DNA from: Gammaproteobacteria bacterium
GTDB lineage: Bacteria; Pseudomonadota; Gammaproteobacteria; SZUA-152
Length of the DNA: 64,000 nucleotides
Direction: 5' to 3'
NCBI GenBank assembly: GCA_029882975.1
Contig: JAOUJW010000005.1
Coordinates: 62,001 to 126,000, forward strand
Position numbers and translations under genes: made by a program. The notes beneath the pieces were generated by a model. That model was not told where the DNA came from. It ran no database searches and worked only from the letters and a program-made list of their open reading frames with translations. Position 1 is the stretch's first letter; every line of letters begins with the position of its first letter. Shown here in pieces: positions 5,116 to 50,651 of the stretch.

Positions 5116-6594
5116 GTGTCAAAGAAAGAATCTCTCCAGCGCAGTACCATTGATTGGGATCAGTACCGGTTCGACAACTATTACGATGAACTCCTTAGCT
5201 CGCCGGGACATCCCAGAATGGCCGCCCGGAAAATAATACGCTATTTGGGGAAAATCAGTGAGAAGCAGTTGGTTCAGCGTCAAACGGCTGCGGAACTGGC
5301 CATTCAGGAAATGGGGATCAGTTTTACCGTTTACAGTGAAGGGGAAAACATAGACCGGGCCTGGCCTATGGATGTCATACCACGAGTCATTGCACTGAAA
5401 GAGTGGCAGCGCCTGGAGAAGGGTTTGGTGCAACGCCTGACCGCACTCAATATGTTCATTAACGATGTCTACAATAAACAGAGTATCGTTAAGGATAAAG
5501 TGTTTCCCATCGAATTGATCCAAAGTTCCAAAGATTATTTACAGGTTTGCCATGGCATTAAGCCCCGTTATGGCGTGTGGGCCAATATTTGCGGCTCGGA
5601 TCTGGTCAGAGATAAAGACGGTACCGTTTATGTGCTGGAAGACAATTTGCGGGTACCTTCTGGTGTTTCCTATATGTTAGAAAATCGGGCGGTAAGTAAA
5701 CGAATTCTACCGCAAATGTTTCACAAACATAGAATTCTGCCGGTAGACGATTATCCCTCGCAGTTGTTCGAAATGCTTGCGTCTTTGTCACCGCGAAAGT
5801 CTCACAGCCCTGAGGTGGTGGTATTGACTCCGGGTATTTACAATTCCGCCTACTTTGAGCATGCCTATCTGGCTCAGGGGATGGGAGCGGAACTGGTGGA
5901 AGGCTCTGACTTGGTGGTGGCGGACGATGATTGCGTTTACATGAAAACCATAAAGGGATTGGAGCGAGTAGACGTGATTTACCGACGTATTAATGATGAC
6001 TTTCTCGACCCTGAGGCTTTTCGAAAAGATTCTTGCCTGGGTACGAAAGGATTGTTTCGGGCCTGGCGCGCCGGAAAGGTGGCGTTGGCCAACGCACCGG
6101 GTGCCGGTGTGGCGGACGATAAGGTGGTCTATACCTATGTTCCCAAGATGATTAAGTATTATTTGGACGAAGACCCTATAATCCCCAATGTACCTTCCTA
6201 CCTCTGTGTTGACGAAAGTGAACGCAAACACGTGCTTGCTAATCTGGAGAAGATGGTGGTCAAACCGGCCAATGAATCCGGTGGGTACGGTATGTTGGTG
6301 GGGCCGGCTGCCAGCAAGGCGGAGCAAAACCGCTTTGCTGCTTTAATTAACAAGCATCCACGTAACTATATGGCGCAACCCGCGTTGAGTTTGTCCACGG
6401 CACCCACTTTGTGTAATGGTAAAATTGAGCCCCGACATTTGGATCTGCGGCCTTTTATCCTGCAGGGACGCAAGCATTATGTGACCGCCGGCGGTCTTAC
6501 CCGGGTGGCCTTGCGTCAAGGTTCCCTGGTAGTCAATTCCTCCCAAGGGGGCGGCAGCAAGGATACCTGGGTAGTGGATACGGAGGTTAATTAG
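5116..6594 (+). CDS. Circularly permuted ATP-grasp ligase-like protein (COG2308)
   Basis: A 492-residue protein of the circularly permuted ATP-grasp type 2 family. Recognisable stretches are the N-terminal YYDEL and P-R region, CHGIKPRYGVWANICGSD, the segment around YVLEDNLRVPSGVSYMLENR, and the late block VVKPANESGGYGMLVGP, which looks like the ATP-binding loop. Such enzymes are predicted to form amide or peptide bonds; no substrate is known. The GTG start has AAAGGG six bases upstream; a TTG at 5110 lies inside that site. The alpha-E gene starts one base after the stop, an arrangement typical of this predicted peptide-synthesis operon. Confidence 0.9.
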   Translation: MSKKESLQRSTIDWDQYRFDNYYDELLSSPGHPRMAARKIIRYLGKISEKQLVQRQTAAELAIQEMGISFTVYSEGENIDRAWPMDVIPRVIALKEWQRLEKGLVQRLTALNMFINDVYNKQSIVKDKVFPIELIQSSKDYLQVCHGIKPRYGVWANICGSDLVRDKDGTVYVLEDNLRVPSGVSYMLENRAVSKRILPQMFHKHRILPVDDYPSQLFEMLASLSPRKSHSPEVVVLTPGIYNSAYFEHAYLAQGMGAELVEGSDLVVADDDCVYMKTIKGLERVDVIYRRINDDFLDPEAFRKDSCLGTKGLFRAWRAGKVALANAPGAGVADDKVVYTYVPKMIKYYLDEDPIIPNVPSYLCVDESERKHVLANLEKMVVKPANESGGYGMLVGPAASKAEQNRFAALINKHPRNYMAQPALSLSTAPTLCNGKIEPRHLDLRPFILQGRKHYVTAGGLTRVALRQGSLVVNSSQGGGSKDTWVVDTEVN

Positions 6595-6595
6595 A

Positions 6596-7531
6596 ATGTT
6601 ATCCCGTGTGGCCGAACGTTTGTACTGGTTTGCCCGTTATGTGGAACGTACTGAGAATACGGCACGACTTTTGTTAGTGCGTCATAATCTGATACTGGAT
6701 TTACCTACTTCAGTACAACCGGGTTGGGATCTGCTGATTGATGTTATGGGGGTGCGGGAGAGTATTGCCGGGGCCCAGGTCAAGTCCATTGAAAAAAACG
6801 TCGTATCTTTTGTTTTCGGTGACAGGGAAAACCCCAGTTCCATTATCAGTTCTCTGGCTGCTGCTAGAGAGAATATGCGCATCACCCGGGAGGTCATGCC
6901 CAGTGAAACCTGGGAACGCATTAACAGCCTATACTTAAGTGTGGCCCGACGCGGGAAAAAGAATCTACCACGAAACTCGCGACACAAAGTGCTGAATGAC
7001 ATAATACAACGATGCCAGCAAATAACAGGAATGTTGGCCGGTTGCATGAACCATGAGGACGCTTATCATTTTATTCGCATTGGTCGCAACCTGGAGCGTG
7101 GCGACATGAGTACAAGAATAATTGATGTGGGGTCGGCCCATCTACTGGGCGCCGATGACGAGGTTTTGCTCTATCGTAATGCCCTATGGGTCAGTGTATT
7201 GCAGTCCTTAAGTGCCTATCAAATGTACCGCTTGAACGTCAGACGAAAAGTACGTCCCGACGATGTGCTGGAATTCTTAATGCGCAACCCGGTATTCCCG
7301 CGTTCTCTCGGCCATACTTTGCAGGAAATCGAAGACAGCGTGTCGGCACTTCCACTCAACGTGGTACCTATCAAAGTGATCCGTTCAGTCAAACAGAAGC
7401 TTAAAAGTACTGAAGTGTCGGAACTAAGGGGAAATGCATTGCATGAATTTATTGATGAGCTTCAGTTACAATTGGGCAAAATTCACCATGCCATTGTCAG
7501 CACTTGGTTCCAGCCCCACAGTGTTTCATGA
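6596..7531 (+). CDS. Alpha-E domain protein (COG2307)
   Basis: 311 residues, all helical in appearance, with the family signature LSRVAERLYWFARYVERTENTARLL at the N-terminus. Alpha-E proteins nearly always accompany the circularly permuted ATP-grasp enzyme, sometimes fused to it, and are thought to be its partner or scaffold. The gene lies one base after the ATP-grasp stop, and its own stop overlaps the next ATG (ATGA). Biochemical function is not established for the family. Confidence 0.9.
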   Translation: MLSRVAERLYWFARYVERTENTARLLLVRHNLILDLPTSVQPGWDLLIDVMGVRESIAGAQVKSIEKNVVSFVFGDRENPSSIISSLAAARENMRITREVMPSETWERINSLYLSVARRGKKNLPRNSRHKVLNDIIQRCQQITGMLAGCMNHEDAYHFIRIGRNLERGDMSTRIIDVGSAHLLGADDEVLLYRNALWVSVLQSLSAYQMYRLNVRRKVRPDDVLEFLMRNPVFPRSLGHTLQEIEDSVSALPLNVVPIKVIRSVKQKLKSTEVSELRGNALHEFIDELQLQLGKIHHAIVSTWFQPHSVS

Positions 7532-8547
7532 AACGTTTTTTCTGCCAGTGTGGACAGGAAGTATTTTTCGATAGCCGCTACTGTCAGGCTTGTCAGCTTG
7601 CTGTAGGGTACGATCCCAATAAAGCCATGATACTCAGCCTGGAACCAGGAGGTGATAATACCTGGGTATCCACTTTGGACCGAACCCAATATCACTTGTG
7701 TGACAACGGGCGGCTCCATGGAGTTTGTAATGGTCTGATTGAAGCCGAAAATGCCTCATCGACAAACAAACTTTGTGTGGCCTGCAGTCTCAACCGCACC
7801 ATTCCTGACTTATCAAAAGAAGGTAATCTGTTTCATTGGAACTCTATTGAACAGGCCAAACGACGACTTATTTACGGGCTGCTGCAACTGGGCCTGCCTC
7901 TGAATGCCCCCGTTTCCGCTTACCCTATGGGACTGGCGTTTGATTTTCTTGAAGACCAGCGTAGCAATCCCAATATGCCGGAAGAGTTTGTTATCACCGG
8001 TCACAGAAATGGTGTAATTACCCTGAATATTCTGGAAGCCGATGAGGTGCAACGGGCTTGGCAAAAACAACTGAATTTTGAACGTTATCGTACGGTGTTA
8101 GGACATTTGCGACATGAAGCTGGGCATTACTATTTCGAGTTGCTGGTGGGGGATCAGCAAAACTTTGCTGCAGTTTTCGGCGACCCTCAGCTGCCTTATG
8201 AAAAAGCTCTACAAAACTATTACCAAAACGGTCCCCTAGACGGTTGGCAGCAAAGCTATATCAGTGCCTATGCCGGCGCCCATCCGCTGGAAGACTGGGC
8301 TGAATGCTTCGCCCATCTTTTGCACGTTTGCGATACCCTGGAGACAGCCATAGCGCGGGGTGTGCTACCCCCTGTGGAAGAACCCATGGATGTTGATACC
8401 TTGTTGTCAAGTTGGGATCGCTTAGCTGTGACGCTCAATGAATTGAATCGGAGTCTGGGGTTGGCGGATGCTTATCCATTCGTGGTTGCACCGACCATTG
8501 CTGAAAAATTTCGTTATATACACGGCCGTATTCGGCAAATTGTTTAA
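7528..8547 (+). CDS. Putative zinc-binding metallopeptidase (COG4307)
   Basis: 339 residues. The N-terminus carries a zinc ribbon (C-x-C early, then C-x-x-C around residues 16-19). Near residue 195 is H-E-A-G-H, the HExxH site of zinc metallopeptidases, and HPLEDWAECFAH further on could give the third metal ligand. This family is a regular member of ATP-grasp/alpha-E operons, where it is proposed to process or break down the peptide-like product. The start is the ATG overlapping the alpha-E stop. Catalytic residues are intact; the substrate is unknown. Confidence 0.88.
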   Translation: MKRFFCQCGQEVFFDSRYCQACQLAVGYDPNKAMILSLEPGGDNTWVSTLDRTQYHLCDNGRLHGVCNGLIEAENASSTNKLCVACSLNRTIPDLSKEGNLFHWNSIEQAKRRLIYGLLQLGLPLNAPVSAYPMGLAFDFLEDQRSNPNMPEEFVITGHRNGVITLNILEADEVQRAWQKQLNFERYRTVLGHLRHEAGHYYFELLVGDQQNFAAVFGDPQLPYEKALQNYYQNGPLDGWQQSYISAYAGAHPLEDWAECFAHLLHVCDTLETAIARGVLPPVEEPMDVDTLLSSWDRLAVTLNELNRSLGLADAYPFVVAPTIAEKFRYIHGRIRQIV

Positions 8548-42455: not shown

Positions 42456-42884
42456 TTACTTTCTTTCAGACTGGTTACATAAAAAAGGTAATAACTGATC
42501 AATTTGAGGTGATTTGAGTTTTTTCCATCTTGGCGATACATACGCCTGTCCGTCCCACTTCAGGGTCACCAGATGCAGTTCATCGCTACGCGGAGCGTAA
42601 ATTAAGTTGTGTTTCTGTGCCAATTGCTGTTTGAAAAGAGATGGGTTTATTTCACCATTATGTTCCACTACCACTACTTTATCAGGCGATAGTGTTTTGT
42701 AGCGCTCCAAGTATATTTCTGTGGCCAGCTGGGGTATCGCATCGGTAACACTGGTAGCGTCACCCAAATCCGAAAATAAGAGTACAACTTTGTCAGGCAG
42801 TTCTAAAATGGTTAAGCCACATTCTTTGTTTTCAATACCTTGTCCTTTAAAACGATAAATCTCGCTCTGTACCTGTGCTGTCAT
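42456..42884 (-). CDS. Uncharacterised protein at the end of the VWA/MoxR operon
   Basis: 142 residues, no signal peptide or membrane helix, not recognised by me. It shows TILELPDKVVLLFSDLGDATSVTDAIPQLATEIYLERY and VVVVEHNGEINPSLFKQQLAQ, alternating beta-alpha in look, and ends in QLLPFLCNQ. Spacing to the VWA gene upstream is 30 bases, same strand, and a candidate terminator follows it, so it is likely co-transcribed as the sixth gene. Whether it belongs to the conserved system is unknown. Confidence 0.65.
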   Translation of the reverse strand: MTAQVQSEIYRFKGQGIENKECGLTILELPDKVVLLFSDLGDATSVTDAIPQLATEIYLERYKTLSPDKVVVVEHNGEINPSLFKQQLAQKHNLIYAPRSDELHLVTLKWDGQAYVSPRWKKLKSPQIDQLLPFLCNQSERK

Positions 42885-42914
42885 TTTTAACTCACTTTTT
42901 GGTATATGGGCGTG

Positions 42915-44105
42915 TTAACTTCTTGCGCTCTCTTCACGCGTTAGCACTATGCCCTCTGATGCAGCCCACTCGTGCATGTCTCTTTTGGAAATGGCTGCAG
43001 CCATCAGATCCGGAAACTTATCCGGGGTGCAGGCAAAGGTGGGTATGCCCATGTTTGAAAACACTGCCGCCATGCTGTGATCGTAAAAGGAAGCACCGTC
43101 ATCGCTTAATGCTAAAAGGGTAATGACCTGTACACCGGCCAGCACCAGATTGGAGACGCGTTGAACCATTTCCTTGGCATTTCCCCCCTCGTATAAATCG
43201 CTGATAAGAATAAAAATAGTATCATCGGGGCGTTGAACCAACCCCTGGCTGTAAGCAATAGCACGATTGATATCCGTACCGCCACCCAGTTGTACCCCGA
43301 ATAACAAATCCACCGGGTCATCGTGCAGCTCTTCACTTAGGTCAACAACGGCTGTATCAAACACCACCATACTGGTGCTCAGCGCCGGCATAGACGCCAT
43401 GACTGCAGCAAATATACCGGAATACACAACGGAAGTAGCCATGGAGCCGCTTTGGTCTATACACAGCACCACATCCTTAAGAGATGATCGCTTTCGGCCA
43501 AAACCAATCTTAATCTCAGGAACAATGGTTTTATAATCCGGTAAATAATTCTTAATATTAGCACGTATAGTTCGGTGCCAGTCGATCTCCTTTAACCTCG
43601 GTCGGCGATTACGAATGGAACGGTTCAAGGCCCCGTTGACTGCAGTTTGCATTGGTTGTTGCAAACGTTGCAAAAGTTCGTCAACCACCTTGGTGACCAC
43701 TTGGCGCGCAGTATCTTTGGTTTTGGCGGGTATGACATTTTTCAGTGAAATTAAGGTGGCGACCAAGTGCACGTCCGCTTCCACGGCTTCCAGAATTTCC
43801 GGCTCCAACAGTAGCTGATCCAAGCCCAATCGCTCAATGGCGTCCTGCTGCATCACTCGAACCACTGACGAGGGAAAAAATTGGCGGATATCACCCAACC
43901 AGCGGGCGACACTGGGTGCAGAGGCTCCTAAACCTCCACGCCCACGCTTACCCATACCTCCTCCGTCACTGTCCTCTCCGCCATACACGGCACGAAGACA
44001 GCGATCCATAGCCAAATCATCACCCTGCAGGGCATTTGCCATTGCTCCGGACTCACCCTCGCCTAAGATTAGGCGCCAGCGGCGTTCCCGTTCAGCCTGA
44101 TCCAT
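42915..44105 (-). CDS. VWA-domain protein of the SWIM-DUF5691-MoxR-DUF5682 set
   Basis: 396 residues. A helical N-terminal half (about 1-200) precedes a VWA domain with an intact metal site: VLCIDQSGSM (D-x-S-x-S), LGGGTDINRAI and LISDLYEGG. VWA domains paired with MoxR ATPases are known to act as adaptors presenting targets to the AAA+ ring. The ATG at 44105 has GGAGG six bases upstream; the TTG at 44111 lies within that region. The start overlaps the DUF5682 stop by 14 bases. No membrane helix. Confidence 0.88.
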   Translation of the reverse strand: MDQAERERRWRLILGEGESGAMANALQGDDLAMDRCLRAVYGGEDSDGGGMGKRGRGGLGASAPSVARWLGDIRQFFPSSVVRVMQQDAIERLGLDQLLLEPEILEAVEADVHLVATLISLKNVIPAKTKDTARQVVTKVVDELLQRLQQPMQTAVNGALNRSIRNRRPRLKEIDWHRTIRANIKNYLPDYKTIVPEIKIGFGRKRSSLKDVVLCIDQSGSMATSVVYSGIFAAVMASMPALSTSMVVFDTAVVDLSEELHDDPVDLLFGVQLGGGTDINRAIAYSQGLVQRPDDTIFILISDLYEGGNAKEMVQRVSNLVLAGVQVITLLALSDDGASFYDHSMAAVFSNMGIPTFACTPDKFPDLMAAAISKRDMHEWAASEGIVLTREESARS

Positions 44106-46410
44106 GGTCAACCTCCAATCCCAGCAGTCGGCTTACCGTGGGGAGTACTTGCCGGGCTCGTTGATGATCGAAATCGCTTTGCGGCAAGGTGCCAGGCAGG
44201 GACGCTTTTTGGTGTTTCACCCGTTCTCCAATTTGACGTCTTTCGGGCATATCAAAACTGGAAAAAGTTCGTCGCAATACCGGTAGCATATTGATAAAAG
44301 CTTCGCTTGGGAGCTGGGAAATCCATTGATCCAGGATCTCCCAAAGGCTTTGATCGTATATAAGCAGCTGACCACTTCCACGTAAAAATCCATCTGCCCA
44401 GGCTGCGGCTTGCCCCGGATCATTTGCGACAGACAAGGCTAATCCGAATTGTCGTGCCGCCTCCGTATCATCAATGGCTCCGGCATTCAGTAATAATTGA
44501 CAGCAGCGACCGGTAAGAAGGGCGTGGATGTCTTCCCGGTCTAACATCGAGATGAGAGTATGGTGCCAACTCTCGGTAAACTCTATGTTGTCCAATAGTG
44601 CTACCGCTGTTTGTACTCCTTGGATCAACTGGTGCAGGTGTTCTGCGGCTTCTTCATTAAGAGAAACACAGGAGTTGGGCAAACCGATGCACACGCGGGT
44701 GATCATTCCCGCCACCACGGTTTGTACAGTGTCTAAGGATGTTTTGCGCACATCGCCGTAACGCAGCAAATGGGCCAGGTTAGGTAAAGCAGCCATTAAA
44801 TGTAATACATCCGCGGCGCGCGCCGCTTCGGCTTGCAGGGTTTGCATCAGGACATCCACAGCTGTATCTAAGTCGGCGAACAGGGCATCCTGGGCAAGTG
44901 CTGCCAGTTCTTCCAGAGACTGATCGTTAGCTCTGGCAATTGTGGCACCATTGGCTGCAGCTTTAATGGTGTTCCCCCAACGTCCGGCCTCGATGAGTTT
45001 GATTTCAAATTCGGGTTTCCACTGAATGCGCCAACTTTCCTTAAAAGTCCCTTTACCGCGGGCTTCATTCCCCCCTTCACCCCAATGACAACCCAGCAAG
45101 CGTAGTTGTCGTAACAGATAACTGCGTTGCAAATCATTGGGTTTGCGCAAATCAAGAATCAGTTCGATATCAGCTGCGCTGGGTTTTAGACGCAGACTTT
45201 TTTGTAGTTTTGCCAAATCCTGTTGTAAGGGCGTCAGGGGGGTATCTTCCGGTACTAACCCCAAGCGCTCTCCTATAATGAGTTTTTGCTGTAACAGGCG
45301 CATTGGTAAGGCATCACCAAACAACATAACCGTTTGTATAGCTTCATTGAGTTCATCTAATCCTACTATAGGTCTGCCGCGCATGGCTGTAAGGGCATCA
45401 GCCAAACGCACCGACTCAATAATGTGAGCTGAGGAAATGTCCAACCCCTCTTCACGGAAAACTCTAGCTGCCAGCGTCAGCCAGTGTAAGGCGATTTTGT
45501 TTTCATGGTTCCATAAATGATGGTACCAGCCGGGTGAATGTATGCCGGCACCATAACCGCCGGCGTAGCTGAGTCGGCCATAACTCCAAGGTATCCAGGT
45601 CGCATTGGTTTTGATTTTGGGCAGGTTTTTTAATATTTGATTGTCTTGTTTTACCGGAGGAAGTTCCTTTAAGGCTGGAACATGCCAAGCCCCACACACG
45701 ACAGCGATATTCTGAAAACCTTCTTTTTGAGTGGCGCGAAGTGTCTTACGCATATGCGCTTCGCGTAATTGTTCTATGAATTCGTCATGTTCATCGGTTG
45801 TGTTGTTCGTTACCGGCTCTTTGCTAATTTCTTCGCGTAATGCCGTCATCGCTTCAGCAATACCTAAAAACACGTTATCACTGTTGCGACGCTCTTCAAC
45901 CATGTGTTCCCACCAGCGTTCGCTGTCTTCATAACCGGCTGCCTGGGCCAACAAACGCAATGGATCTCTGCGAAGCTGTTGCATCAATCTGGGATCTTCG
46001 AGCTTCGTGTCCTCGTCATTCTCTTCGTTGTCCTCTTCACTGTCCACTTCGCCGATCACCTGAGCCTGAAGTTTGGCCTCCTGCGTCTGATCCAGGGCTA
46101 AGCGAAAACTAATGGGTAAGTCCATAAATCGCACAGGTACGTTTTGATCCAAAGCATATTGTAAAGCCTGCCATTCCGGGGAAAATTGGGCAAAGGGATA
46201 GTAAACCGCTTGATCCGGTTGTTCCGGTGCATAAACCAGGATGGCCACCGGTGTTTGCATTTGCTCGTGTTTACATAAGGGTATGATGGAATCCGCTTCG
46301 GGGGGGCCTTCGATCAGCAGCACATCCGGCTGCATAGCGTCCAGAGCCACTTTTAAGCTGCGCGCAGACCCCGGACCGTGGTGTCGTATACCAAATATTT
46401 GTACGGTCAT
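44092..46410 (-). CDS. DUF5682 protein with TraB/TIKI-like N-terminal domain
   Basis: 772 residues. The N-terminus has FGIRHHGPGSARSL (H10-H11) and PDVLLIEGPPEA (Glu34), and near residue 240 VVCGAWHVPAL. These resemble the conserved residues of the TraB/TIKI/ChaN/erythromycin-esterase superfamily, which includes hydrolases and proteases. An acidic, low-complexity stretch lies at about 121-138. The remaining 500 residues are helical with HEAT-like looks. No signal peptide, so cytoplasmic. The start ATG overlaps the MoxR stop by one base. The superfamily link is my reading of motifs; activity untested. Confidence 0.8.
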   Translation of the reverse strand: MTVQIFGIRHHGPGSARSLKVALDAMQPDVLLIEGPPEADSIIPLCKHEQMQTPVAILVYAPEQPDQAVYYPFAQFSPEWQALQYALDQNVPVRFMDLPISFRLALDQTQEAKLQAQVIGEVDSEEDNEENDEDTKLEDPRLMQQLRRDPLRLLAQAAGYEDSERWWEHMVEERRNSDNVFLGIAEAMTALREEISKEPVTNNTTDEHDEFIEQLREAHMRKTLRATQKEGFQNIAVVCGAWHVPALKELPPVKQDNQILKNLPKIKTNATWIPWSYGRLSYAGGYGAGIHSPGWYHHLWNHENKIALHWLTLAARVFREEGLDISSAHIIESVRLADALTAMRGRPIVGLDELNEAIQTVMLFGDALPMRLLQQKLIIGERLGLVPEDTPLTPLQQDLAKLQKSLRLKPSAADIELILDLRKPNDLQRSYLLRQLRLLGCHWGEGGNEARGKGTFKESWRIQWKPEFEIKLIEAGRWGNTIKAAANGATIARANDQSLEELAALAQDALFADLDTAVDVLMQTLQAEAARAADVLHLMAALPNLAHLLRYGDVRKTSLDTVQTVVAGMITRVCIGLPNSCVSLNEEAAEHLHQLIQGVQTAVALLDNIEFTESWHHTLISMLDREDIHALLTGRCCQLLLNAGAIDDTEAARQFGLALSVANDPGQAAAWADGFLRGSGQLLIYDQSLWEILDQWISQLPSEAFINMLPVLRRTFSSFDMPERRQIGERVKHQKASLPGTLPQSDFDHQRARQVLPTVSRLLGLEVDHGSG

Positions 46411-47504
46411 CAGATGATTTCGCGGCAAGCTCGGTACAGATCTTTCCAGTCTTTCCGTTCTTTAATAACGGTTTCCATATATTCTTTCCATACGACGGAA
46501 TCTTGTACCGGGTCTTTGACAACGGCCCCAACCAGGCTGGATGCCATATCGGTGGCGGTTAAGGAACCGTCGCCAAAGTGAGCCGCCAATGCCAGCCCAC
46601 TGCCAACGACCGAAATTGCTTCCGCTGTACTTAAGGTGCCGGACGGGCTTTTCACTTTGATCTTGCCATCCCAGGTAACCCCATCACGCAATTCGCGGAA
46701 CATAATCACCACGCGGCGGATTTCCTCCAGTGCGGGTTTTTCAGCGGGTAACTCCAACGCTCTACCCAGTTTTTCTACACGCTGTTCCACAATTTGCACT
46801 TCTTCTTCTATAGACGAAGGCACAGGTAAAATCACGGTATTGAAACGCCGTTTTAAAGCGCTGGATAAATCATTTACGCCCTTGTCGCGGTTATTGGCGG
46901 TGGCTATAATATTGAACCCTTTTCTAGCCTGGCGTTCGGTGTTGAGTTCAGGTATCGGTAATGTTTTTTCGGATAAGATTGTAATCAATGTGTCCTGCAC
47001 ATCTGCAGGTACTCGGGTTAATTCTTCCACACGGGCAATCTTACCTTCACTGATGGCGTGCATAATAGGACTGGGCACTAAAGCCGATTCACTGGGACCT
47101 TCGGCAATGAGCTTGGCGTAGTTCCAATTGTAACGAAACGCTTCCTCCCCTACCCCGGCGGTGCCCTGAACGATAAAAGTGGACGATCCGCAAATTGCAG
47201 CCGCCAGATGTTCCGATACCCAGGATTTCGCCGTACCAGGTAAACCGTACAGCAACAAAGCTCGATCAGTGGCCAACGTTGAAATAGCAATTTCGATTAA
47301 TCGTGGATTACCGATATACTTTGCGCTGATTTCCATGCCATTGTTCAGTTTTCCACCGAGAATATAGGTTCGTACCGCACCGGGCGATAAGGACCAATTG
47401 GGGGGCCGGGCTTGGTCATCTGCCGCAGACAAGGCTTCCATTTCATGGGCAAACTCTTCTTCGGCATGTTGGCGTAAGACGGCAGTGTTTGGGGTCTGGC
47501 TCAC
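46410..47504 (-). CDS. MoxR-type AAA+ ATPase
   Basis: 364 residues. Walker A is GLPGTAKS (87-94); the Walker B position reads IARVEE (Glu159-Glu160), with the Asp replaced by Glu; sensor 1 is TANN (201-204) and the arginine-finger region ALKRRF (215-220). It should act as a ring ATPase together with the VWA protein two genes downstream. The GTG start has AGAGG seven bases upstream. The stop overlaps the DUF5682 ATG (TGATG). Gap to DUF5691 is 18 bases. Confidence 0.9.
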   Translation of the reverse strand: MSQTPNTAVLRQHAEEEFAHEMEALSAADDQARPPNWSLSPGAVRTYILGGKLNNGMEISAKYIGNPRLIEIAISTLATDRALLLYGLPGTAKSWVSEHLAAAICGSSTFIVQGTAGVGEEAFRYNWNYAKLIAEGPSESALVPSPIMHAISEGKIARVEELTRVPADVQDTLITILSEKTLPIPELNTERQARKGFNIIATANNRDKGVNDLSSALKRRFNTVILPVPSSIEEEVQIVEQRVEKLGRALELPAEKPALEEIRRVVIMFRELRDGVTWDGKIKVKSPSGTLSTAEAISVVGSGLALAAHFGDGSLTATDMASSLVGAVVKDPVQDSVVWKEYMETVIKERKDWKDLYRACREII

Positions 47505-47522
47505 GGCTCACCTCTTTAGTGT

Positions 47523-49103
47523 TTAATGCGTTTTTGACGTGGGATTAATAATTTCTTGTAACATGGTGTTTCGAAACAACAAAGTATCCAGTGTTTCCTG
47601 TAATGGTTCCTGGTACAAACCCTCATTTTCCAGCGGTTTCCTCAGCTGTGTATGAAAGTACTCCAGGCTGTCCAAATGCAAATACAAAGCGGTAATATTT
47701 AATAAGGTACTGATATAATAGTAGCGCTGGTTCAACCCGGAGAACGCGCCGGCCCATGCATCCACCACTGCTTTGGAGAAGGACAAGCTCCACGGATACT
47801 TGAGGTGTTCCAGTAAATTCAGTTTTTCCACCAATGCTTTGGCGTTACTGGTGCCGCTAAGCAGCTCGAGTACCACCTGCTCGCGTTGGTCGGGGACGAG
47901 AATTTTCCACAACTCGGTGTCCATAGGTTCCTGTTTAAGCCAGACTTGAGCAAACTCAGAATCGTTGTGTCTTAGTACGGCACTATACAGCCCCTGTTGC
48001 AGTGGTTGTTCCCACTCGTGCTTTCTAATAATGTCCGCAATTTCTCCGGGATTGAGTTGCCACAAATGACACCAGTGTCCGGGTGGCACCAGGGCCAGAC
48101 TTTGTTCTAACCACCAGGCTTTTTGGCCTTTTCCCTTCGGTGCGGTTTCAATAATCCCGTCTTTCTGCCATTCGTTGTCCCACTGTTCCGGAAGTTCCAC
48201 GGCTAAGCTGCCCTTTTTCGTGCGATTAAGTTTGCTTTTACCATTTGGCGTAAACTGCAACCATTGTTTGAGTCGCTTCAGGGTCCGCTGTGAAAATTGC
48301 GAATCCGGTAATTGTGCCAGCAAACTCGCAGCTGTAAGACGAACTTCTTTACTTTTGTCCTGCAAGCAGGTCTCCAGAAAGGCTTCGTCCTGTTTATTCA
48401 AAGCGATTTCCAGGCAGTTAAGAAGTGCCACACGGTCTTTGGCGGACTCTTGCTTCCAGGTGTCTTGAAGGAGCTGCATTGCTTGTTTATTGTCGATTTT
48501 TCGCAGTTGTCGTAAATAGACACGGCGATCCTGGGTATTGCCCAATTCCCAATCAGTTGTTTTGAGTTCTCCATCTTGTTTAGAGGGCATGTCCTGTAAC
48601 AATTCCTGCCATTGTGGGTGCTGTGCCGCGAGCCACTCCCCCCTTTCTCCTGCCACAGCAAGTATGGGCCTGCGCAGGGGTTTTTTGCGCAATGCTAAAT
48701 CCAAAAGCCTGGGTAGCAATAAATGGGGTAAACGTAAAGACTGCCGTTCCACGGCATCGAGCCACTCCGGTAACAGGGCTAGATTGTCACGGTCGCGTAT
48801 AATTTGTTGTAAGTGGTTTTGGGACAGTGTTGTAACAGTCGGTTGAGTATTAGCGGGGCAAGGTACAATAGTTTCGTCGCTTTGATCTGCCTTGATTCCT
48901 GCGTGATAATAAACACCTACCAGCGCTGCTGTGGATAGAAATGCGGCTTCGCGGTTACCGTCCTGCGGAATTTGACCAGTGGGGTAAATCTGTCGGATCA
49001 AAGGACCAAGGTTTTCATCCTTTAGCAGGACCTGAAGCCCGGTATCGGTTTGTCGTTCGGTACCCAGTAGGGCCACTTTTATGAGCTCTTGCCAGATTTG
49101 CAT
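47523..49103 (-). CDS. DUF5691 helical repeat protein
   Basis: 526 residues, no signal peptide or membrane helix. Mostly helices with HEAT-like stretches such as MQLLQDTWKQESAKDRVALLNCLEIALNKQDEAFLETCLQDKSKEVRLTAASLLAQLPDS. It begins LIKVALLGTERQTDTG, the characteristic start of DUF5691. Likely a scaffold or target-binding partner of the MoxR/VWA pair. It starts four bases after the SWIM gene stop. Confidence 0.8.
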   Translation of the reverse strand: MQIWQELIKVALLGTERQTDTGLQVLLKDENLGPLIRQIYPTGQIPQDGNREAAFLSTAALVGVYYHAGIKADQSDETIVPCPANTQPTVTTLSQNHLQQIIRDRDNLALLPEWLDAVERQSLRLPHLLLPRLLDLALRKKPLRRPILAVAGERGEWLAAQHPQWQELLQDMPSKQDGELKTTDWELGNTQDRRVYLRQLRKIDNKQAMQLLQDTWKQESAKDRVALLNCLEIALNKQDEAFLETCLQDKSKEVRLTAASLLAQLPDSQFSQRTLKRLKQWLQFTPNGKSKLNRTKKGSLAVELPEQWDNEWQKDGIIETAPKGKGQKAWWLEQSLALVPPGHWCHLWQLNPGEIADIIRKHEWEQPLQQGLYSAVLRHNDSEFAQVWLKQEPMDTELWKILVPDQREQVVLELLSGTSNAKALVEKLNLLEHLKYPWSLSFSKAVVDAWAGAFSGLNQRYYYISTLLNITALYLHLDSLEYFHTQLRKPLENEGLYQEPLQETLDTLLFRNTMLQEIINPTSKTH

Positions 49104-49107
49104 AAGT

Positions 49108-50481
49108 TTAAGCCATCATTTCCAATTGCAGACCGACAAGGTTATGTGCTTCCTGGTGATTATATACAGTCAGTGGTTTGAAACGTCCTAAATCCCATTC
49201 CCCAAATATATCTACGGGAAAACCACCACTAATAGACAATAAGGTCCAACCCAATGAGTTAAGCAGTTGCAATTCCAACACTCGGTTTTGTGTGTCTTGT
49301 ATATACCAGTGGTCTCCACGTCGATAAGGTACCACCTGAGATAAAGCCATGGGAAAGGCATATAACCAGGGATATTCAGCCAAAGCCCGGGTATATTGTT
49401 GTAAGGCGGTGTCGATTGAGATAAATGCAGTCGGGGCATTCGGAGTTTGCTGCTTTAGCGGAGATTGTAATTGATCGGGTTCTTTGAGCACTGCTCTCAA
49501 GGGCCAACTGCCCGGATAGTAAATCAGCTCTCCTTCAAAACATTGACCAACACCGGGACGTATAGGCAACACCTGATTAGCTACCGCGAAATCCAACAGC
49601 ATGGCATAGCGACTGCTGTTTTGACCCAGTAACCAAGTACGCTGAATCTGCAACTGGGATTCCAGTTCAGTGACTTGGCTCATAACCCACCAGCTATCCG
49701 AAGTTACCGGGTGGTTCATCAACTCCTCTTTGTTATGAGTATAACCCAGGAGCGAATCCACATCGGCTTTCTCATTGTCGCACAACAGCTCCTTGTTTTT
49801 ATATGCGTTGATAAGTAAGTGCATCTTTGCCAACTGAAACAATAAAGGTTCTTGCCAATGATCCACTTGATAACGTAGATCGGCCCCCCTTTGAATCCAG
49901 CGCGACAATCCCGGCGCCTGGGCATCCACCATACGGGCTGCCATTTTTCGCCAGTGATCACCGGAATCATCTTGCCGGGCCAAACCATGGCGCGCCTGGT
50001 CCTGTATCCACTGTGAGAGGTCTTCTAATCCGGTTGCGACTTTTTGTTCCCTGGATTCACTGCGTTTTTGTTTGGCTTTTTCTCGGCGCCTTAAGGTGGC
50101 CTCATCAGCGGGGCTCTCTTGTTTTGGGTTTGCTTTTCGAGTTGCACGCTGTTCTCTTTTCTCCAGCCAATCGCTAACCCAGTCCGGTGCTTGAGCCTGT
50201 CCCATAGCAGTGGATTCTTCAGCGAACACATAGGCCAGACCCAAGGCGTGTTTACAGGGAAATTTACGGCTGGGGCAGGAACATTTGAAAGCCGGACCGG
50301 TCATTTCTATACAGGTCTGATAGGGTTTGGAACCGCTACCTTTGAATTCACCCCACAGGGCCTTTTCGGTTTTCCCCAATGTCTGCCATTTGGAGGCACG
50401 CCCCAGTTTCTGCCCGGCTTTTACAGAAGCCGTATCCGGAGCCATGCTGGTGACTTGATCAGATGTCCAAGTGATTGGCAT
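49108..50481 (-). CDS. SWIM zinc finger protein
   Basis: 457 residues. The SWIM motif C-x-C-x6-C-x-H is at residues 67-78 (KCSCPSRKFPCKHAL), followed by a Lys/Arg/Glu-rich linker (about 110-155) and a long domain without recognisable motif. SWIM domains bind DNA or proteins, so this may be the recognition subunit. It is the first gene of the five-gene minus-strand set, four bases before DUF5691. No regulatory gene is adjacent. Confidence 0.85.
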   Translation of the reverse strand: MPITWTSDQVTSMAPDTASVKAGQKLGRASKWQTLGKTEKALWGEFKGSGSKPYQTCIEMTGPAFKCSCPSRKFPCKHALGLAYVFAEESTAMGQAQAPDWVSDWLEKREQRATRKANPKQESPADEATLRRREKAKQKRSESREQKVATGLEDLSQWIQDQARHGLARQDDSGDHWRKMAARMVDAQAPGLSRWIQRGADLRYQVDHWQEPLLFQLAKMHLLINAYKNKELLCDNEKADVDSLLGYTHNKEELMNHPVTSDSWWVMSQVTELESQLQIQRTWLLGQNSSRYAMLLDFAVANQVLPIRPGVGQCFEGELIYYPGSWPLRAVLKEPDQLQSPLKQQTPNAPTAFISIDTALQQYTRALAEYPWLYAFPMALSQVVPYRRGDHWYIQDTQNRVLELQLLNSLGWTLLSISGGFPVDIFGEWDLGRFKPLTVYNHQEAHNLVGLQLEMMA

Positions 50482-50504
50482 ATCAAAATAGTAGTCGTTA
50501 CTCT

Positions 50505-50651
50505 TTGTTTTTAAAAGGCATACTATTAATTGCTGGTCTGCTTGTGTGCGGTATGATTGTTATCGGCAACAATCCGGGCAAATTGATGTTTGGATTCAAT
50601 TTTTTTAATCCCAATGGTTATACCACTACCAAAGTGCGAAATTTGACATAA
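50505..50651 (+). CDS. Possible small membrane protein (48 aa)
   Basis: Plus-strand frame between the SWIM start and the EAL-HDOD stop. A hydrophobic stretch KGILLIAGLLVCGMIVIG is followed by NNPGKLMFGFNFFNPNGYTT and a basic end. TTG start, no ribosome binding site, so the start is uncertain; an in-frame TTG at 50475 would add ten residues. It could be spurious. Confidence 0.3.
   Translation: MFLKGILLIAGLLVCGMIVIGNNPGKLMFGFNFFNPNGYTTTKVRNLT

Follow-up and report, generated by a model that had tools for sequence, protein, structure and literature searches.

A stretch of 64,000 nucleotides of contig JAOUJW010000005.1 from Gammaproteobacteria bacterium (GCA_029882975.1, positions 62,001-126,000; hereafter the window) carries a run of genes for a SWIM zinc-finger protein, a DUF5691 protein, a MoxR-type ATPase, a DUF5682 protein and a VWA protein. 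Do these genes form a unit, and what might such a unit do? The literature searched contained no paper on DUF5682 by name and no experiment on the layout SWIM-DUF5691-MoxR-DUF5682-VWA.

A conserved five-gene unit

The five genes are densely packed, all on the minus strand, and are followed by a sixth:

42456..42884: sixth gene, 142 aa; no Pfam match
42915..44105, minus strand: VWA (CoxE-like) protein, YehP homologue, 396 aa; Pfam VWA_CoxE 2e-48
44092..46410, minus strand: DUF5682 protein, YehM homologue, 772 aa; Pfam DUF5682 2.4e-271
46410..47504, minus strand: MoxR-type AAA+ ATPase, YehL-like, 364 aa, GTG start; Pfam AAA_5 1.8e-35
47523..49103, minus strand: DUF5691 protein, 526 aa; Pfam DUF5691 8e-129
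49108..50481, minus strand: SWIM zinc-finger protein, 457 aa; Pfam SWIM 4.7e-5, above cut-off

Open reading frames and junctions were checked on the sequence. SWIM and DUF5691 are separated by a 4-base gap and DUF5691 and MoxR by an 18-base gap, while MoxR and DUF5682 overlap by 1 base (TGATG) and DUF5682 and VWA by 14 bases, exactly as an earlier note on this DNA had read them. That note had also placed the sixth gene behind the five; it lies 30 bases beyond the VWA gene. It has no counterpart at the other loci compared or in the 24 relatives searched, so the set ends at position 42915; seen in this genome only, the gene was ruled out as a member. None of the five proteins contains a strongly hydrophobic stretch (the top 19-residue mean is 1.83, at about residues 231-249 of the VWA protein), and all five therefore look cytosolic. 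Upstream of the SWIM gene, in the intergenic gap, lies a divergent 58-aa ORF with a TTG start and a hydrophobic stretch (50475-50651, plus strand), which had no match in the 24 related genomes searched.

Profile-based synteny analysis covered 40 loci, 23 of which hold all five genes. The order SWIM-DUF5691-MoxR-DUF5682-VWA occurs in five phyla (Pseudomonadota, Planctomycetota, Bacteroidota, Deinococcota and Actinomycetota), and its carriers include a Bacteroidota plasmid (Hymenobacter), a Deinococcota plasmid and an Actinomycetota replicon. As the earlier note had stated, this gene order exists in other bacteria, and it is widespread; the genes are not scattered in relatives, the order being kept in the 23 five-gene loci. 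One exception is a MAG scaffold with Ns (L020), on which DUF5682-VWA lies behind unrelated genes. In a profile search of 398 Pseudomonadota genomes, DUF5682 was present in 14 and DUF5691 above cut-off in 7, all of them within the 14 DUF5682 carriers (P about 1e-11) and exactly those with the high-scoring form of DUF5682. Given this nesting and the order in the 23 loci, the grouping is not due to chance. The pairwise divergences of the five proteins are correlated at 0.81-0.95, a level reached in 0 of 500 shuffles and to which shared ancestry of the hosts contributes. The five genes are a conserved unit, both in their order and in their co-inheritance.

Phyla are intermixed within the DUF5691-layout group of the DUF5682 and MoxR trees, and DUF5682 is missing from a congener and almost throughout the family, a pattern consistent with the set having been transferred, or lost repeatedly, as a whole. 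An empty-site test did not show a clean empty site, as the flanking kinase is too common and the EAL/HDOD gene is just 42% alike in the congener. Another genome of the same family contains only a DUF5682 fragment with an internal stop (L067, G399:C212:8931-9596), likely a decayed copy. On a Methylosinus plasmid (L061, 11220-12388) the VWA gene is split across several frames, and the set there is probably broken.

Kinship with E. coli yehLMPQ

The window MoxR protein aligns with YehL of E. coli across its full length (38% identity, 8.7e-74), the VWA protein with YehP (33% identity, 4e-70) and DUF5682, again at full length, with YehM (23.5% identity, 9e-36). The SWIM protein matches the YehQ family over 137 C-terminal columns outside the finger (hhalign E 5e-5, probability 66%), and the finger itself is present in both. 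MoxR, DUF5682 and VWA are adjacent and in the same order in the window set and in the yehLMPQ operon. Judged by these comparisons, the five-gene set and E. coli K-12 yehLMPQ are sister forms, with MoxR corresponding to YehL, DUF5682 to YehM, VWA to YehP and SWIM, more loosely, to YehQ. The earlier note had missed this kinship with an operon whose MoxR protein represents a named subfamily: YehL is one of seven, in a classification cited in PMC3893208. Of these seven it was the sole subfamily compared; the window MoxR is homologous to it over the full length and likewise shares its operon with a VWA gene. The papers found on the YehL subfamily contain no description of the DUF5691 layout.

The two layouts differ in several respects. 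In E. coli (yehL-yehM-yehP-yehQ, with molR/yehH and yehI) the SWIM gene lies at the opposite end, as the last gene, and DUF4132/WGR (MolR-like) proteins occur where the window set has DUF5691; the window set contains no DUF4132/MolR-like gene. In E. coli-like loci a DUF4132 protein, sometimes together with WGR, stands ahead of MoxR or, in L063 and L064, between DUF5682 and VWA. In the DUF5682 and MoxR trees each layout forms a single, fully supported group, the E. coli layout being a separate branch, and one genome (G196) has both. Homology between DUF5691 and DUF4132 was considered and rejected: although they share the slot, their profile comparison was not significant. The Fusobacterium locus L059 reads SWIM, an unnamed 637-aa protein (5938-7851, no Pfam family), MoxR, DUF5682 and VWA. 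Since a third, unnamed protein stands here in the slot of DUF5691/DUF4132, this second slot is exchangeable.

The MoxR-DUF5682-VWA genes of an unverified faecal 'Bacteriophage sp.' contig, possibly bacterial, group with the Fusobacterium form (L062, 253-4879). On a conjugative E. coli IncF plasmid (L060, 1-18892) a chromosome-like stretch spanning yehI to mlrA adjoins IS26. An Iodobacter plasmid (L065, 1297-18743) has an E. coli-like layout in which the SWIM protein is split in two, with a type I restriction system next to it. The genome-reduced E. coli DGF-298 has no yehI-yehQ (PMC10652928), which makes the E. coli form dispensable.

Motifs and predicted folds of the subunits

In the MoxR protein, whose nearest solved structures are midasins, Walker A (GxPGTAKS), E160-E161 and the sensor and arginine residues (N204, R219-R220) are conserved across 40 sequences. 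The Walker B motif of AAA+ proteins usually contains Asp-Glu; at this position the MoxR protein (46410-47504) has an invariant Glu-Glu, in both layouts. The MIDAS motif of the VWA protein (DxSxS / T / D) is intact, with D217, S219, S221 and D303 in 38/38 sequences and T277 in 37/38. The MoxR-VWA pair recognized in the earlier note thus retains both its ATPase and its MIDAS motifs. CoxE is the VWA partner of CoxD, and we know of no DUF5682 or SWIM partner for either RavA-ViaA or CoxD-CoxE. These pairs join an AAA+ ATPase to a VWA partner, as does the window set (for RavA-ViaA and CoxD, PMC3893208), but they represent MoxR subfamilies other than that of the window set. Some MoxR-VWA pairs are known to serve as chaperones (PMC3893208, PMC7159879).

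The SWIM finger (CxCx6CxH, residues 67-78) has C67, C69, C76 and H78 invariant in 24 sequences. DUF5691 gave weak HEAT matches in Pfam, and its structural model is a mostly helical solenoid (mean pLDDT 81) with weak best fold matches, largely to HEAT/ARM-type helical repeats; we propose that it may act as a HEAT-like scaffold or recruitment subunit. In Hymenobacter, SWIM and DUF5691 are fused into one protein of 1009 aa (L055). This one fusion and the correlated divergence weakly favour the earlier suggestion that the two proteins act together.

The structural model of DUF5682 (pLDDT 72.8, middling) predicts an N-terminal alpha/beta domain (about residues 1-275) followed by a helical C-terminal part. 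R9, H10, E34, E79, D97, R216, E217, G240 and H243 are invariant in 41 DUF5682 sequences from both layouts; among those that align with residues of TraB or ChaN are:

46381..46383, minus strand: DUF5682 His10, first GxxH; invariant in 41, aligned with the TraB/ChaN motif His
46309..46311, minus strand: DUF5682 Glu34; invariant in 41, aligned with the TraB/ChaN Glu
45763..45765, minus strand: DUF5682 Arg216; invariant in 41, aligned with the TraB arginine in the profile comparison
45682..45684, minus strand: DUF5682 His243, second GxxH; invariant in 41, aligned with the TraB/ChaN GxxH

Among 24 profile pairings, DUF5682 against TraB/PrgY/GumN (P 5e-4) and against ChaN (1.7e-3) were the top two, and both align the segment R216-H243; a joint alignment with TraB and ChaN lines up H10, E34, G240 and H243. 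The comparison with Ere carries no information, its profile probably being built on misread frames (in L118 the segment used does not agree with the listed Ere ORF). The spacing of the H/E/R/H residues is near that of H3902, E3930, R4001 and H4030 in RRSP (PMC6254334).

At the structural level, VIA-align placed residues 1-255 of the DUF5682 model on a subunit of Tetrahymena complex IV (Z 9.3-9.6, ~190 residues, rmsd 5.4-5.7). This complex is reported to contain a TraB-family protein (PMC10060162), which is taken to be the matched chain; searches of solved-structure sequences with a TraB protein and with a TraB profile found no TraB relative, so the name of the chain rests on that paper and on inference. 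The top viral fold match of DUF5682 was also a TraB family protein (E 8.9e-3). A Foldseek search of the PDB gave no match below 0.001 and was dominated by helical repeats, and the DUF5682 sequence found nothing of value among solved-structure sequences. With no match reaching Foldseek E 0.001, the likeness of the predicted N-terminal domain to the TIKI/TraB fold is supported, not proven. The TraB/TIKI likeness put forward earlier is supported as a resemblance, on the GxxH, E, R, GxxH pattern together with the structure matches, and a mismatch to the TIKI fold, which would have spoken against it, did not emerge.

Members of the TIKI superfamily (TraB/PrgY/GumN, ChaN, Ere, RRSP) have an alpha/beta domain with GxxH, E, R and GxxH placed similarly to those of DUF5682. 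Unlike them, DUF5682 has a large helical C-terminal part and belongs to a MoxR-VWA operon; unlike RRSP, it lacks a counterpart to the second Glu in the 2His/2Glu set, and its hydrolase activity is putative.

A putative remodelling machine and its alternatives

We give a probability of about one half to the reading that the five genes encode a cytosolic, ATP-driven machine of the YehL class, which remodels a client and cleaves or hydrolyses it through the TIKI-type domain of DUF5682, in what is likely an accessory role, non-essential and serving stress response or quality control. The architecture and conservation are observed, whereas the client, the reaction and the order of action are inferred. 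SWIM, through its zinc finger, and DUF5691, as a HEAT-like scaffold whose place DUF4132/WGR takes in the E. coli form, would jointly hold a client protein or complex. Remodelling of the held client would fall to the MoxR ring acting with the VWA adaptor; MoxR-VWA pairs are thought to bind peptide via VWA and then, hydrolysing ATP, to remodel the bound complex (PMC7159879). Cleavage or hydrolysis of the client would follow, through the TIKI-type domain. That DUF5691 occurs exclusively alongside one form of DUF5682 supports a single machine. In D. radiodurans an operon with a DUF4132 gene rises upon loss of DdrO (PMC8533742), which would hint at stress control if that operon is of the present kind. 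A bolder and rather doubtful extension is that these systems represent a new class of ATP-fuelled regulated hydrolases, in which a MoxR-VWA motor feeds a TIKI-type peptidase while SWIM and an interchangeable subunit (DUF5691, WGR/DUF4132 or unnamed) choose the clients. Its logic would be similar to that of Clp/Lon, but built from unrelated parts.

The main rival is metal or cofactor insertion, with MoxR and the CoxE-like VWA protein loading a cofactor into an enzyme, a ChaN-like DUF5682 carrying or handling it, and DUF5691 or DUF4132 docking the client. The VWA protein falls in Pfam VWA_CoxE, CoxD and NorQ are MoxR relatives that serve metalloenzymes (PMC3893208), and DUF5682 resembles the haem-binding ChaN in both profile comparison and joint alignment. 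The gene molR, beside yehLMPQ, is named for molybdate use, as cited in PMC4245954 and PMC8533742. However, the MolR-like gene is missing from the DUF5691 layout, the flanking genes sampled included no recurrent cofactor enzyme, and moeA/moeB stayed level when DUF4132/WGR genes of D. radiodurans went up (PMC8533742), and we regard this explanation as unlikely, if the best of the alternatives.

Slightly less probable is an anti-phage or conflict system; here the sensing of an invader would lead the MoxR-VWA pair to arm a DUF5682 hydrolase. The patchy distribution of the set, the mixing of phyla in its trees, its absence from a congener and its plasmid copies are all compatible with such a role, as are scattered defence neighbours (a type I methylase in L021, PDC-S28 in L023 and the type I restriction-modification system adjoining the E. 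coli-like, type B set of L065), although this census had no background set and its counts are descriptive only. Conflict functions have been proposed for analogous MoxR-vWA ternary systems, whose operons likewise combine MoxR and VWA with additional subunits (PMC7159879); that paper does not mention SWIM, YehL, TraB or WGR. Against this, PADLOC found no match for SWIM, DUF5691, DUF5682 or VWA and, for MoxR, a weak ATPase-loop match alone (IetA, 0.0017 over 28 residues). A Pfam scan of the set detected no VMAP, iSTAND, FtsH or beta-propeller domain and no fused effector, with bpMoxR below cut-off (22.1 vs 27 bits). Variable effector or toxin modules are absent from the set, the genes flanking it belong most often to metabolic or regulatory families, the viral contigs searched contained no relatives, and in E. 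coli K-12 the operon has a chromosomal place among ordinary genes. The novel defence system envisaged in the earlier note was accordingly not borne out.

It is least probable that DUF5682 is a catalytically inert subunit with a TIKI fold, serving as scaffold or ligand binder in a machine that merely assembles or disassembles a complex: the missing RRSP-type second Glu, the long helical C-terminal part suggestive of binding and the example of PMT, which retains the fold without the motif (PMC6254334), would suit it, but strict invariance of H10, E34, R216 and H243 across layouts ~23% identical is unusual for a dead site.

The five-gene set is a real, conserved system and adds a variant to the YehL class, which is known but unstudied. 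Two families without a name of their own, DUF5682 and DUF5691, are hereby tied to an unstudied operon of E. coli K-12, and DUF5682 gains a probable fold, a new assignment, along with four testable residues. The proposed targeting slot is exchangeable against a fixed MoxR-DUF5682-VWA core. The set thereby becomes accessible to experiments by gene deletion in a laboratory strain and, if the regulated-hydrolase reading is true, a form of this machine exists in E. coli K-12.
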